The position numbers and the translations under genes are program-made. From Oscillospiraceae bacterium (GTDB lineage Bacteria; Bacillota; Clostridia; Oscillospirales; Ruminococcaceae), in assembly GCA_902362965.1 (NCBI GenBank), contig CABIYQ010000037.1, positions 1 to 5,963 of the forward strand: a stretch of 5,963 bases of DNA. Reading direction: 5' to 3'. This document shows positions 1,665 through 5,963 of the stretch, piece by piece; position 1 is the stretch's first letter; the number at the start of each line of letters is the position of its first letter. A model generated the notes under the pieces. That model did not search any database. It was given only the letters and a program-made list of their open reading frames with translations, and was not told the origin of the DNA.

Positions 1665-1861
1665 TAACCTGCAAGGGATCGTTTGAATACTGGGCGCATG
1701 TCTTATGGCAGCGCCACGGACTGCGTATGGAAGAGTTTGAGAAAATGCCTAAACGCACAAAACTCTTCTACATTGCGTCCGAATTGTGCGAGTTAAACGA
1801 CCCTTGCAGGGTAGATATACAAATTTTGCTTGCTATGCTTAAATGCGGGGTGAGGCTGTAA
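1203..1861 (+). CDS. Long tail assembly chaperone made by -1 frameshift (219 residues predicted)
   Basis: A -1 slip at 1655-1661 lets ribosomes bypass the tandem stops and read on from CTA at 1661-1663 to TAA at 1859-1861, adding 66 residues. The extension begins LITCKGSFEYWAHVLWQRHG, continues through the region EEFEKMPKRTKLFYIASEL, and ends MLKCGVRL. It is helical and aromatic-rich, with four cysteines. It has no start codon with a ribosome binding site of its own, since the internal ATG at 1727 has none. The open frame fills the whole gap between the short form and the tape measure gene, strong evidence that it is translated by fusion. A short form plus a minor frameshifted long form is the conserved arrangement of tail assembly chaperones in long-tailed phages (for example lambda gpG/gpGT). 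In those systems the extension recruits tube subunits to the chaperone-coated tape measure protein. Frameshift efficiency cannot be read from sequence. Confidence 0.88.
1655..1661 (+). promoter_or_regulatory. Programmed -1 ribosomal frameshift site, A AAA AAC
   Basis: The heptamer AAAAAAC fits the X XXY YYZ pattern in the correct phase. The zero-frame codons are AAA (1656-1658) and AAC (1659-1661), which re-pair as AAA AAA after a one-base backward slip. TAA TAA follows directly in the zero frame at 1662-1667. I see no clear Shine-Dalgarno-like stimulator 10-14 bases upstream; the likely stimulator is the downstream structure starting at 1668. Confidence 0.9.
1668..1810 (+). promoter_or_regulatory. 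Long-range RNA stem downstream of the frameshift site, enclosing nested hairpins
   Basis: Bases 1668-1677 (CCTGCAAGGG) are perfectly complementary to 1801-1810 (CCCTTGCAGG): ten pairs, seven of them G-C. The stem starts 6 bases after the heptamer, within the usual spacing for a -1 frameshift stimulator. The 123-base interior holds a GGCGC/GCGCC hairpin (1693-1697 with 1711-1715) and a long hairpin, 1728-1738 with 1760-1770, of eleven pairs with one G-U. CGCACA in the loop of that hairpin (1754-1759) can also pair with TGTGCG at 1785-1790, giving a possible pseudoknot. The inverted repeats are directly visible; the role as a frameshift stimulator is inference. Confidence 0.6.
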
Positions 1862-1863
1862 TG
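1850..1863 (+). promoter_or_regulatory. Ribosome binding site and TAATG stop-start overlap for the tape measure gene
   Basis: The GAGG at 1852-1855, within GTGAGG at 1850-1855, lies 5 bases before ATG 1861, a moderate site. The stop of the -1 chaperone extension (1859-1861) shares one base with this ATG. Ribosomes that frameshift therefore end exactly on the tape measure start, which may couple tape measure synthesis to long-chaperone synthesis. Confidence 0.75.
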
Positions 1864-4800
1864 TCATATGTAATGAATGCCGTATTTAAGGCAACAGACG
1901 GGATAAGTCCTATATTAACAAGCATAGGTCAAATCGGAGAAAAGGTTGTTGCCGGTCTTGAAGACGGTTTTCTCGGCGTAAACTCCTCTGTTGGGCAGTC
2001 GGCAAAAATGTTTTCGGAAGCCTCCGCCTCAATATCAAAGATTTCCGGCGAAATGTCGGGTATTGTATCACAGTCAGAACAGGTTTCCGCTGCAATAGAC
2101 GGAGAATCCGAGACATTGAGAAAAAATGCACAGTCATTGCAGCTGAAAGCAGATGAAGCCGAACGTGCGGCAGAAGCTGACAGAAAGCATTATGAAGAAC
2201 TTTTAAATCAGAGTACGGCCGAAGAAAAAGCTTCTGAATCTATGAGCCAAAGCGTAGAAATTGCACGTCAAAGGGCTGAGACCTCAGAACAAATCGCTGC
2301 CGGATTGCGTGAAGAAGCGGATGCTGCCGAACAAGCATATATTAATTTGGATAATAATGCTCAGGCGGCTGTTCAGGCGGCTCAGGCGGAAGATAAGCTT
2401 GTCGATTCGGTAAATAAGGCGGCACAATCTGAACAAAAAGCTGCTGATGCGTTGGAAAATTCTGATTCTTCCATGAATCGTACTGCTAAAACCGCAACAT
2501 CGACGGCAACCTCTTTTGCGAAGCTTGAAGCCAGCACTTCGGGTAATATATCCGCTACAAGAGCTCTTGCTAAAGAATTTTCTAATGAAGCTGAAAAGTT
2601 AAGACTGGCAGCGATAGAAGCACATAAAGACGCAGATGCCAAAAGACAAGCTGCGCAAGTGGCAAAAGAGTTGCATGAAAATCTTAAATCGGAGCTTTTG
2701 ACAGTACGGGAAAATACCGAAGCTTCAAAAGAAGATACAAAGGTTCTTGCCGAACGAACCGAACAAGCAAGACGTTTTGCTAAGGCTAAGGAAGAAGCTG
2801 CTAAGCGAGCTGAAAAGAAGGCACAGAATTTAGAATCTGACACTGCCGCAGCTAAAAAAAATGCCGCTGCTTTGGAAGAAGCTGCACAAGCAGACGAACA
2901 ATTATATAACTCTGCAAACAAAACTGCTTCTGCTGAGCAAAAAGTAGCCGACTCTCTCAATAAATCCGAACAGGAGGCTAAGGAGTACGGCGCCGCCATG
3001 ATAAAGGCGGCTGATGACAGCGAAAAGCTAGGAGACAAGGGCGGTAACGCTATTTCTGAACTGGAATCAATTATTGCAGGTGCAGGAATAGTCATGGGGC
3101 TTAAAAAAATCGGCGAAGCGTTTCTTGATTGCAGTAATTCAGCGGCACAGTTTGAGGCAAGTATTGCAAAGGTTTCAACAATTGCCGATACAAGTCAGGT
3201 TTCCTTGAGTACTATAGAATCAGATATTATGGCTCTTTCACGTTCAACCGGACAAGGTGCAGGCGATTTAACAGAAGCTTCGTATCAGGCAATTTCAGCC
3301 AGTGTCGATACTGCCTATGCCGTTAAGTTCGTTGATGAAGCCAATAAGCTTGCTGTGGGCGGTTTTACTCAACAGGCAACAGCTGCGGACGTACTGACAA
3401 CGGCTATAAACGCTTATGGGTTAGCCGTATCAGAAGCGACACAAGTGTCAGATATGCTGATAACAACTCAGAATCTCGGTAAAACAACAGTTGACGAACT
3501 TGCTCAGAACATGGGGCGTGTTATCCCTCTTGCAGCGGCATATAACGTTGAAATGGATAATCTTTCTACGGGTTATGCTATTCTCACAAAAAACGGTATT
3601 GCCACGGCAGAGTCAACGACATATTTAAAATCCATGCTGAATGAACTCGGTGATACAGGAAGTGCAGTTGCCGGAGTTTTACAGGAACAAACAGGACAGT
3701 CTTTTGCACAGCTTACAGAAAGCGGTTATTCACTGGGTGATGTACTGACTGTAATCGGAGACAGCGTAAACGGTGATACCACGGCATTTAATAACCTTTG
3801 GGGAAGTCAGGAAGCCGGAATCGGTGCGTTGGCTTTGTTTAATGCAGGAGCGGCAGAGTTTAACAGCACTCTGGGCAAAATGCAGGATTCAGCCGGAGCG
3901 ACTGAAAAAGCGTACATGACTATGACCAATACCACGGAACACGCTCAGAAGAGAATGCAGAACGCTTTCAGCAATCTTGGTATTACAATAGGTTCGCAGC
4001 TGAATCCGGTTATTTCAGATTTGTATAACGGTGTTGCTGATGTTGTAGACGGGTTCTCGGAATTTACCGATGAACATCCGGGCGTGACAGCGGCAATTAC
4101 AGGGGTAAGTGTTACTTTAGGAATAGGCACTGTAGCTTTGACCGGATACAGCGTCGCTTCTAAGGTGGCTTCGGCGGCAACTAAAACCTTTACCGCTGTT
4201 TTACAAGCGAATCCTCTGGTAAAAGGAGCTATGATTGCTGTTGGTATAGCAGGTGTAGTTGCAGGAGTAGCTTCGTTTACAAATGTAATTAAAAGCAATA
4301 CTGATGCCGTTGAGGACTACAACGGAACGCTTGAACAATGCAGTACAGAAATTGACAATACCAGAACAGCTTATGAAAATGTCTGCAATATGTACGGAGC
4401 TGAATCTCAGGCGGCACAAGGTCTTGCTTCTGAACTTGAAACTCTTAATGCTCAGTATCAAAAAGGTGGAGGATTTGCAGCTGATTATGCTCAGCGATTG
4501 GAAGAAAGCAAGGAAGCCCTTGCTTCGTTCACTACTGAATACAACAGCAAAATGGACAGTATCGACAAAGATTGGCAAAATGGAATGGTTGCAGTAGCTC
4601 AGCTTGAAGCATTATCCAAGCAGTCTGAATTAACCAATGCCGACCTTGATATGATGTCTCAATATGCCGATTACCTTAATAATACATTTAATTGTAATAT
4701 TGAGGTTGATTATGATACGGGTAAATTAACAGGGTTCGATCCGACTAATATAAATTCACAGATGGCAACATTTGCTCAGGAGAGTATTAAGGATTATGCT

Positions 4801-5963
4801 CAATCTAAGCTTGCATCAGGAGATGTTTCTACAGAATACCTAAACGCTGTTCGTTCATTAGAGGATTTTGAAAAGAAGTCTAAAGTTCAGATATATGAAG
4901 ATTTGAAGGAATTGGGCAGGTCAAGTGATTCAATAACTGCTGAAGAAATACAAGGTATGCTGGAAACTGATGAAGACTATGCCGAAACTTACAAAGGATT
5001 TATCAATGATGTAAGTAATTATAAAAATCAGCTTTATACATTGTATACTGATGCCGGTTATGAAGATGGTTGGGATTCATATATTGGTTCTCTTGATGAT
5101 GTAGCCAATGTTTACAACGATTTAGGGAAATCAGCGAAAGAAGCTCAGAAAGCCATGACGCCTGAAGAAGCAATTTCAGAAGTATGGGCAGCTAAAGAAG
5201 AAGAGATAAATCAACTCGCTCAGGCTTATGACGAGGCATATACCGCTATAAGAACAGACCTTGACGGTATGTTCGGGTTGTTTGAAGAAGCAAGCATAAA
5301 TCTTGAAAATACGTTGTCTCTTGATGGTGCTATAGACAATCTTGAAAGTCAGATTGATTATTTCAACCAATATGAAGAAGCTCTAAGTCGGCTTTCTGAT
5401 ATGGGAGTTGATAATTCTATAATTGAACAGTTGGATCCAGAGCAGGCGGTTGCTTTTGCTCAGCAATTGGGTGAAATGGACACTTCACAAGCGGCGGCTA
5501 AGATAGAAGAGTTAAACGGTTCATTTGATAAATTATCTGAAACGAAAGATAAAGTTGCCGAGAAAATGGCGGATGTTGAAACGGAATTTTCGGAAAAACT
5601 TGATGATATTAAAAAACGACTCGGTGAAGCTGTTGATGACATGGAACTTGGCAAAGAAGCTGCTGATTCTGCAAAGCTTACAATGGACGGATACATATCC
5701 CAACTTAAATCTAGTGGAGATACAGCAGTGTCGGAAGCTCAAAACATTGCACGCAGAATCACTGCTGCACTAAATGTTAACGTTTCTCCGACAATATCAA
5801 CCGATAGTTCCTCATCAGGTTCAACACCGTCAGTAACAACAACGCCTTCATCTTCAGGTACAACTACTGCAACAACAGTTACAAGGAATGCAAACGGTAC
5901 AACATATGCCGATGATGTTTTTATTGCGGGTGATGAGGGCCCTGAGCTTATTATAGGAAAAAA
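1861..5963 (+). CDS. Phage tail tape measure protein, TP901-like core (3' end outside window)
   Basis: The frame runs from ATG 1861 to the window edge, at least 1367 residues with no stop. The tape measure protein sits extended inside the growing tube, fixes tail length and is released during infection. Domains in order: residues 1-60, short N-terminal region; about 60-400, alanine/glutamate/lysine/glutamine-rich coiled coil with internal repeats; about 425-720, a TP901-type tape measure core, starting near SAAQFEASIAKVSTIADTSQ and including LTEASYQAISASVDTAYAV and AYGLAVSEATQVSDMLITTQ; about 741-806, two glycine/alanine-rich hydrophobic segments, possibly membrane-inserting during DNA injection; about 815-1310, mixed helical sequence rich in Asp, Asn, Tyr and Glu; 1309-1340, Ser/Thr/Pro-rich linker; then TTYADDVFIAGDEGPELIIG, the motif commonly near tape measure C-termini. 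No peptidase or lysozyme motif was noticed. ATG 1873 is a possible alternative start but fits the ribosome binding site less well. Confidence 0.93.
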   Translation, partial: MSYVMNAVFKATDGISPILTSIGQIGEKVVAGLEDGFLGVNSSVGQSAKMFSEASASISKISGEMSGIVSQSEQVSAAIDGESETLRKNAQSLQLKADEAERAAEADRKHYEELLNQSTAEEKASESMSQSVEIARQRAETSEQIAAGLREEADAAEQAYINLDNNAQAAVQAAQAEDKLVDSVNKAAQSEQKAADALENSDSSMNRTAKTATSTATSFAKLEASTSGNISATRALAKEFSNEAEKLRLAAIEAHKDADAKRQAAQVAKELHENLKSELLTVRENTEASKEDTKVLAERTEQARRFAKAKEEAAKRAEKKAQNLESDTAAAKKNAAALEEAAQADEQLYNSANKTASAEQKVADSLNKSEQEAKEYGAAMIKAADDSEKLGDKGGNAISELESIIAGAGIVMGLKKIGEAFLDCSNSAAQFEASIAKVSTIADTSQVSLSTIESDIMALSRSTGQGAGDLTEASYQAISASVDTAYAVKFVDEANKLAVGGFTQQATAADVLTTAINAYGLAVSEATQVSDMLITTQNLGKTTVDELAQNMGRVIPLAAAYNVEMDNLSTGYAILTKNGIATAESTTYLKSMLNELGDTGSAVAGVLQEQTGQSFAQLTESGYSLGDVLTVIGDSVNGDTTAFNNLWGSQEAGIGALALFNAGAAEFNSTLGKMQDSAGATEKAYMTMTNTTEHAQKRMQNAFSNLGITIGSQLNPVISDLYNGVADVVDGFSEFTDEHPGVTAAITGVSVTLGIGTVALTGYSVASKVASAATKTFTAVLQANPLVKGAMIAVGIAGVVAGVASFTNVIKSNTDAVEDYNGTLEQCSTEIDNTRTAYENVCNMYGAESQAAQGLASELETLNAQYQKGGGFAADYAQRLEESKEALASFTTEYNSKMDSIDKDWQNGMVAVAQLEALSKQSELTNADLDMMSQYADYLNNTFNCNIEVDYDTGKLTGFDPTNINSQMATFAQESIKDYAQSKLASGDVSTEYLNAVRSLEDFEKKSKVQIYEDLKELGRSSDSITAEEIQGMLETDEDYAETYKGFINDVSNYKNQLYTLYTDAGYEDGWDSYIGSLDDVANVYNDLGKSAKEAQKAMTPEEAISEVWAAKEEEINQLAQAYDEAYTAIRTDLDGMFGLFEEASINLENTLSLDGAIDNLESQIDYFNQYEEALSRLSDMGVDNSIIEQLDPEQAVAFAQQLGEMDTSQAAAKIEELNGSFDKLSETKDKVAEKMADVETEFSEKLDDIKKRLGEAVDDMELGKEAADSAKLTMDGYISQLKSSGDTAVSEAQNIARRITAALNVNVSPTISTDSSSSGSTPSVTTTPSSSGTTTATTVTRNANGTTYADDVFIAGDEGPELIIGK
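2377..2466 (+). repeat. Protein-level repeat in the tape measure coiled coil, copy B
   Basis: Residues 173-202 (starting AAQAEDKLVDSVNKAAQSEQ) match residues 341-370 at 16 of 30 positions without gaps, by hand count. A weaker relative lies at residues 103-131 (nt 2167-2253), starting AAEADRKHYEE. The nucleotide sequences have diverged strongly, so any duplication is old. Confidence 0.6.
2881..2970 (+). repeat. Protein-level repeat in the tape measure coiled coil, copy C
   Basis: Residues 341-370 (starting AAQADEQLYNSANKTASAEQ) are the partner of residues 173-202. They share AAQA, NK, EQK and AD..L..S at fixed spacing. The offset is 168 residues, exactly 24 heptads, so the repeat keeps the coiled-coil register. 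Against residues 103-131 there are 10 identities at an offset of 238 residues, 34 heptads. Confidence 0.6.
4081..4278 (+). other. Paired hydrophobic segments in the tape measure protein
   Basis: Residues 741-764 (GVTAAITGVSVTLGIGTVAL and following) and 787-806 (VKGAMIAVGIAGVVAGVASF) are glycine/alanine/valine-rich and uncharged, joined by a short polar stretch with one proline. Such paired segments are common after the core of TP901-type tape measure proteins and could span the host membrane during DNA entry. Membrane insertion itself is inference. Confidence 0.65.

Follow-up and report, generated by a model that had tools for sequence, protein, structure and literature searches.

At the end of a phage tail assembly chaperone gene, a branched long-range stem is predicted between two arms, at positions 1668–1686 and 1793–1810. 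It is a likely stimulator of −1 frameshifting there and would thereby set the ratio of the chaperone product G to the extended product GT; we put the probability of this reading at about 0.83. Coordinates refer to the window, that is, the whole stretch of DNA that was analyzed (5963 nucleotides of contig CABIYQ010000037.1 from an Oscillospiraceae bacterium). The long-range stem is predicted because the two arms are complementary and covary across related phages. A long-range stem at a distance typical of stimulators had been proposed in a preliminary description of this DNA, and the proposal stands: the predicted pairing probability is high, compensatory changes occur among relatives, and the structure goes beyond what the encoded protein imposes.

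The window carries a contractile-tail phage module in the order sheath (2–664), tube (677–1108), chaperone, −1 extension, and tape measure, with the features from the chaperone onward on the plus strand. The chaperone gene (1203–1664), read in the 0 frame from an ATG at 1203 to a TAA at 1662–1664, encodes an XkdN-like tail assembly chaperone (Phage_TAC_5) and is the equivalent of gene G. Its ATG is preceded by GGAGG at 1190–1194, and the same start is found in many relatives; the open reading frame list offers 1188 as an alternative, and the segment 1188–1664 matches PF08890 (E = 2.8e-20) and phrog_389 (E = 2.8e-22). The gene ends in GCA-AAA-AAC-TAA. Direct reading places the in-frame slippery heptamer A AAA AAC at 1655–1661, with the 0-frame TAA directly behind it, inside a 6-nt spacer (1662–1667) that leads to the stem. 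The −1 frame extension (1655–1861), the equivalent of T, runs for 68 codons from the heptamer to a TAA at 1859–1861, as indicated by translation and by conservation in relatives. The pair thus has the G/GT layout, with a chaperone before the tape measure and an overlapping −1 extension. The extension piece 1667–1861 (64 residues) gave no Pfam or PHROG match at the limits used; despite this, the peptide is well conserved (YWAHxLWQRHxLRxExF). In the public records of three relatives, L172 (Dulem virus 37), L286, and L287, the T extension is unannotated, and the gap after the chaperone is either blank or occupied by a short hypothetical CDS.

The tape measure gene (1861–5961) runs off the window and was assigned from matches of 1843–5961 to phrog_28775 (E = 1.3e-82) and PF10145 (E = 4.9e-25). 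Its ATG and the T stop share a base in the sequence TAATG, and GGGGTGAGG is found upstream (1843–1863). Among the 70 clusters of relatives (see below) with enough sequence, 51 have an open frame of 150 nt or more that begins near the T stop, the commonest arrangement being a one-base overlap (17 clusters), and an SD-like motif, loosely defined, accompanies 47 of these 51 frames. The overlap and the downstream frames hint that tape-measure synthesis may be coupled to that of GT.

The outer part of the 5′ arm, CCTGCAAGGG at 1668–1677, is by direct reading the exact reverse complement of CCCTTGCAGG at 1801–1810 and begins 6 bases past the heptamer, just as the preliminary description had it. That description envisaged a lone 10-bp stem closing a 123-base loop, and in this respect the predicted structure differs: in the minimum free energy (MFE) structure the helix resumes past a bulged A at 1678, where 1679–1686 (TCGTTTGA) pairs with 1793–1800 (TTAAACGA). 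The predicted stem comprises 18 bp in all, begins 6 nt past A AAA AAC with a C–G pair (C1668–G1810), spans 143 nt, and closes a predicted three-way junction with two hairpins. The hairpins, at 1693–1715 and at 1717–1781 (the latter with an 11-bp helix, 1728–1738/1760–1770), are placed from the MFE structure only. Pair probabilities are 0.979 to 1.0 for the ten outer pairs, which remain at or above 0.979 when 551 nt of context are folded, and 0.70 to 1.0 for the eight inner pairs. The outer part of the 3′ arm, identified by its complementarity and by covariation, lies over the Pro-Cys-Arg codons of the extension, and the far end of the stem is 50 nt ahead of the tape-measure ATG. Rfam covariance models gave no match up to E = 5 for 1550–1950.

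Viral and genome contigs were searched for comparison loci with the chaperone, the extension, and a DNA pattern, which gave 284 loci plus the window, many being overlapping fetches from one contig. In these, 271 sites combine the heptamer with a −1 extension in which a W...[LM]WQ motif occurs; they represent 83 distinct extensions and 72 clusters at 95% identity, the 72 having been selected for the same slip site. The 0 frame stops immediately after the heptamer in 55 of the 72 clusters and one codon later in the other 17. Among loci fetched by chaperone similarity, many from overlapping contigs, 88/91 have an in-frame AAAAAAC near the 0-frame stop, as do all four further relatives looked at (L173 and L285–L287); the three chaperone loci with no such heptamer are L078, which ends at a contig edge, L079, and L083. 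L079 and L083 are chaperone relatives that matched up to residue 138 only. A DNA-pattern scan of viral sequences used a pattern that fixed GG at columns 22–23, inside the 5′ arm, and 80 of its 110 matching stretches were listed. Sweeps of genomes by protein (E = 1e-10) gave matches in 4/396, and by DNA pattern in 1/391 (G001, already known).

Sixty-seven clusters could be aligned without gaps; L004, L046, L067, L082, and L199 were omitted because of indels or another extension end; with L046 and L067 included, register 174 would gain two stems. L174 and L204, with short chaperone sequences, were kept off the tree described below. Six loci with another type of extension (L085, L091, L173, and L285–L287) were left uncounted and fold into other local or branched hairpins. 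Among these, L286 (1281–1490) and L287, from the Lactobacillus phages phi jlb1 and Lj771, have AAAAAAC followed by a different extension whose predicted fold is branched, begins 8 nt later, and has a 9-bp stem reaching to about +97–105; it is possibly a second long-range stimulator of its own origin.

The predicted fold of the extension is more stable than its coding content would lead one to expect. After the heptamer, the extension has an MFE of −74.9 kcal/mol, compared with −53.5 (SD 4.4) and −51.4 (SD 4.8) kcal/mol in two codon controls that keep the protein; this corresponds to z of about −4.9, and 0/400 controls were as low in either set. A comparison with codon-preserving shuffles had been proposed as a check in the preliminary description. 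Dinucleotide shuffles of 1662–1861 gave a similar picture (z = −5.5, 0/200 as low). Considered alone, the arm duplex of the window is less extreme (p = 0.02 against codon shuffles, p < 1/300 against codon resampling). When 35 overlapping 150-nt coding windows, taken from sheath, tube, chaperone, and extension and from the opening part of the tape measure gene, were scanned, the structure peak lay at the extension (z = −4.25), the second-lowest window being in the tube gene (z = −2.54). Across the family, the mean fold z against codon resampling is −2.57, with z < −2 in 47/72 clusters.

The earlier hand estimate for a chance 10-base inverted repeat, near one in a hundred (and much less for a well-placed one), came close to what was found. 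In 20,000 random recodings that kept the extension protein and followed the codon usage of the family, any 10-bp inverted repeat occurred in the extension 388 times, and a perfect 10-bp stem starting 4 to 8 nt past the heptamer 38 times. Shuffling the window's own codons, which retains the complementary codons, gave 4720 and 382 of 20,000, respectively.

Covariation was assessed in 36 window-type clusters, chosen by protein motif and not by pairing, and aligned without gaps. For an 11-pair helix, 81.3% of cells are paired, compared with 65.7% after shuffling and 30 to 54% when the partner was slid by 1 to 3 columns. The arms covary, as the check for compensatory changes proposed in the preliminary description was meant to reveal: 62 cells are two-sided compensatory, compared with 24.6 (SD 4.1) in shuffled and 15 to 26 in slid controls. 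The covariation score is 0.369 versus 0.148 after shuffling, with 0/500 shuffles as high as 0.369, and column pair 17–153 shows all four Watson–Crick types. Counted in these 36 clusters as pairs with any two-sided change (7 vs. 6.5 shuffled) or as further pair types (20 vs. 18.4), there is no excess. RNAalifold, given no structure, partly recovered the stem (columns 17–19 and 21–23) in a weak consensus of −4.0 kcal/mol, in which two-sided changes preserve stem pairs only.

Because such shuffles ignore relatedness, three more tests were applied, based on mutual information, arm swaps, and a tree. With the clusters divided into classes A, B, and C by pairing score, a division that favors each class's own register, corrected mutual information ranked 17–153 first of 7875 column pairs in class A and placed five stem pairs (17–153, 16–154, 20–150, 19–151, and 18–152) among the top 14; the top pair in class B was 15–126, on register 141, and ranks 2 to 4 in class C fell on register 153. 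In the undivided 67 clusters, ranks 1, 2, 3, and 5 fall on registers 170 and 153 or one position away from them. A plain covariation score computed for all column pairs was noisier than corrected mutual information and the pair counts given above: by this score, two of the top ten pairs in class A are on the stem (17–153 and 19–151), and none of the top 25 pairs in the undivided 67 falls on the three registers. When arms are exchanged between phages, pairing weakens by a mean of 5.4 kcal/mol (own arms −20.1, swapped −14.7; z = −15.5), and 0/5000 arm permutations reach the true pairing. The own partner is among the best 5% of swaps in 30/72 clusters and the best 10% in 41/72; the arm duplex also beats codon shuffles at p = 0.05 in 44/72 and codon resampling in 47/72. 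On a quick chaperone tree, in which 11 of the 62 inner branches are starred, pair 17–153 needs six Watson–Crick state changes among the register-170 clusters.

The branch hairpins show no covariation. One further potential pairing, 1706–1710/1746–1750 (columns 52–56/92–96), joins TGGCA to TGCC, both nearly invariant; the RNAalifold consensus pairs columns 53–55 with 93–95, and the MFE fold of the window does not. Since these stretches encode conserved Trp-Gln and Met-Pro, they offer no covariation by which to judge the pairing.

The far arm occurs in more than one place. In the 67 ungapped clusters, the best register is 170 in 30, 153 in 10, and 141 in 10, and the remaining 17 are scattered, some of them one to four off these three. 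The far arm lies over the P-C-R codons in register 170, which is that of the window, over S-E-L-x-E in register 153, and over I-A-S-E in register 141; relative to 170, it is displaced by 17 or 29 nt, and the position of the T stop varies as well. Random recoding (n = 100) gave mean counts of 3.6, 4.7, and 1.4 for registers 170, 153, and 141 (maxima 9, 9, and 4), and recoding matched for column and residue (n = 100) gave 10.0, 5.1, and 2.9 (maxima 18, 12, and 8). Registers 170 and 141 are therefore above every control, and the count for 153 lies within the column-matched range, making it the least certain of the three. The excess in mean score against the two controls has z values of 15.0 and 9.9 for 170, 7.7 and 5.0 for 141, and 4.2 and 3.3 for 153. 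In 11 of the 67, none of the three registers gives a strong stem without gaps, though a shifted or bulged version suits some of these. On the tree, the register labels need seven changes, with 141 and 153 mostly in one part and 170 over the rest, and the starred branches force only two register changes for each label.

What stays constant across relatives is the position of the 5′ arm near the heptamer. With any fold allowed, nucleotides 5–16 past the heptamer are mostly paired (long-range pairing of 0.5 or more) with partners at least 60 nt away in 59/72 clusters, compared with 339/1080 recoded controls. The preliminary description had taken relatives that keep the heptamer but freely break the pairing as evidence against a stem; such evidence is present in part, in the other 13 clusters, whose 5′ arm is not mostly long-range paired and which are a real exception. 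Long-range pairing exceeds that of recoded controls by 0.06 at nucleotides 1–6, by 0.38 at 7–12, and by 0.33 at 13–18; the excess then stays at 0.22 to 0.24 up to nucleotide 36 and is about zero further on. A spacer of 5 or 6 nt was found in 26 of the 47 clusters with a duplex at or below −18 kcal/mol (range 3–9), in a search limited to nucleotides 4–22 that left 25/72 clusters uncounted; a scan of all positions agrees.

One protein residue follows the pairing. In the window-type clusters, residue 51 of the extension is Cys in 18 of the 19 with GCA or ACA at columns 17–19 and Val in all six with AAC, CAC, or TAC, and the other 11 of the 36 are mixed. The Cys codons are the reverse complements of GCA and ACA, and the Val codons those of NAC. 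The simplest reading of these sequences is that RNA pairing steered residue 51. In another relative, L049, the 5′ arm fits register 153, yet CCCTTGCAGAC is present at the register-170 site, where it resembles an orphan far arm from an earlier register.

The proposed mechanism would run as follows. When AAA occupies the P site and AAC the A site, the ribosome would have the base of the stem at its mRNA entry. Most ribosomes would continue and terminate at the TAA adjoining the slip site, and a minority would slip back one base and enter the T extension. Since 0-frame ribosomes stop at the slip site or one codon past it, the extension is presumably crossed by shifted ribosomes only, which would leave its RNA free to use a distant partner. 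The coding sequence of the extension appears to have been shaped to supply that partner, and across relatives the 3′ arm is sited at any one of up to three places within this coding stretch.

The complementarity could in principle be a by-product of conserved residues (K/R-G-S and P-C-R) combined with codon bias, with no RNA function. Both arms do encode conserved residues, same-column codons alone lift the register-170 mean, out of 67, from 3.6 to 10.0, and the count for register 153 does not leave the column-matched range; against this, register 170 is seen in 30/67 clusters when 100 column-matched recodings never exceed 18, the window keeps its z of about −4.9 with the protein held fixed, and residue 51 itself tracks the pairing. 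A pure coding by-product is accordingly rejected for register 170 by the codon-preserving controls, and we consider this explanation as a whole extremely improbable. Only slightly less improbable is that the stimulator consists of the stem base or a branch hairpin, and that the long-range partner is incidental or belongs to one of several folds that can replace each other, a pseudoknot perhaps being involved. The use of more than one register, the 13/72 clusters that do without clear long-range pairing, and the relatives with another extension type that fold locally or into different branched hairpins would all suit this idea, but the strongest covariation falls on the long-range helix and not on the branch hairpins.

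A selected RNA structure whose main job lies elsewhere, in shielding from nucleases or in tuning translation of the downstream tape measure, is also unlikely. It would gain from the proximity of the stem to the tape-measure ATG, 50 nt further on, and from the open frames that so commonly start near the T stop, often with a one-base overlap. The structure peak, however, sits at the extension, and on the 5′ side the excess pairing sets in at a constant distance past the heptamer, whereas the 3′ arm and the T stop move; this combination speaks for frameshift stimulation rather than for a function at the start of the tape measure. As for the possibility that an upstream SD-like stimulator is a feature of the family, such motifs occur at chance (47/72 vs. 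44.6 expected), and this candidate was rejected.

Beyond stimulation of frameshifting by the long-range stem, we offer a speculative extension, doubtful but worth stating: the element might act as a self-limiting frameshift valve, in which one GT event would make another less likely for a short time, and whose far arm has been rewired in evolution. Since the closing stem spans most of the shifted frame, a shifted ribosome would tear it open, and it would stay open until that ribosome had passed the far arm, so that at high ribosome traffic GT molecules would be spaced out relative to G. Rewiring would proceed by shifting the far arm onto codons elsewhere in the same protein, and amino acids such as the Cys or Val at residue 51 would change to serve the RNA pairing. 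A feedback of ribosomes on the stem, an idea already raised in the preliminary description, would fit the anatomy, in that the 0 frame stops after the heptamer or one codon later in 72/72 clusters.

Frameshifting of the G/GT type in tail chaperones is widely conserved among long-tailed phages, and in lambda and its counterparts the ratio of the two products is important for tail assembly, according to the available portion of PMC5009743. Lambda, as described there, shares with the window a chaperone before the tape measure, a −1 shift near the end of G, and the fusion of T to G. Its heptamer, which we located in the lambda sequence, is G GGA AAG instead of A AAA AAC, the same portion of PMC5009743 names no downstream RNA stimulator for it, and its best long-range arm duplex is −14.6 kcal/mol, compared with −26.2 kcal/mol in the window. 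The corresponding 200 nt of lambda also fold strongly (−71.6 kcal/mol, a raw value taken without a codon control). More generally, that text names no covariation-supported stimulator for a tail-chaperone G/GT frameshift, and titles and abstract openings in the open-licence literature yielded no description of the window structure. The 72-cluster family supplies naturally occurring variants of the arms, in which changes compensate one another and more than one register is used, and it makes several questions testable: how far away the second strand of a stimulatory helix can be, how a constraint on the RNA redirects residues of the protein, and whether the frameshift ratio responds to ribosome traffic.

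The closest parallels for the structure come from insertion sequences. In the part of PMC4066793 available to us, known bacterial stimulators are said to start generally 5 to 8 nt downstream, and A AAA AAC is described as having low efficiency in E. coli yet as very likely being used by IS elements; such inefficiency would be consistent with the window's needing a strong stimulator. The stimulator of IS911 is a three-way junction (Rettberg 1999, as cited in the available parts of PMC5009743 and PMC4066793), and a branched three-way-junction structure a few nucleotides past the slip site is likewise predicted in the window. IS911 also uses an upstream SD-like stimulator, whereas none of the SD-like stimulator motifs given in that part of PMC4066793 occurs in the 19 nt before the window heptamer, and the closing arms here lie far apart in phage T coding sequence, in more than one register. 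According to the empirical rule given in the same part of PMC4066793, branched hairpins of the IS3 family measure 17 to 140 nt and start 4 to 10 nt past the motif. The window element starts 6 nt past its motif with a C–G pair and is predicted to be branched, but its closing span of 143 nt lies slightly beyond the upper limit, for which reason we describe it as working like the IS911/IS3 type and not as a member. The preliminary description had called so long a stem unusual for a stimulator, which is half right given IS3-family hairpins of up to 140 nt. The element also differs from the IS3 family in belonging to a phage tail gene and not a transposase, and in the covariation and register switching reported here. 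A distant partner is also used by IS3411-type ALIL pseudoknots and by the long-distance stimulators of plant viruses (PMC5009743, available portion); those pair a loop with a distant loop, whereas here a plain helix closes the whole element. Branched stimulators are thus already known, and what sets this element apart is a covarying long-range stem inside a phage T frame, with alternative far arms.
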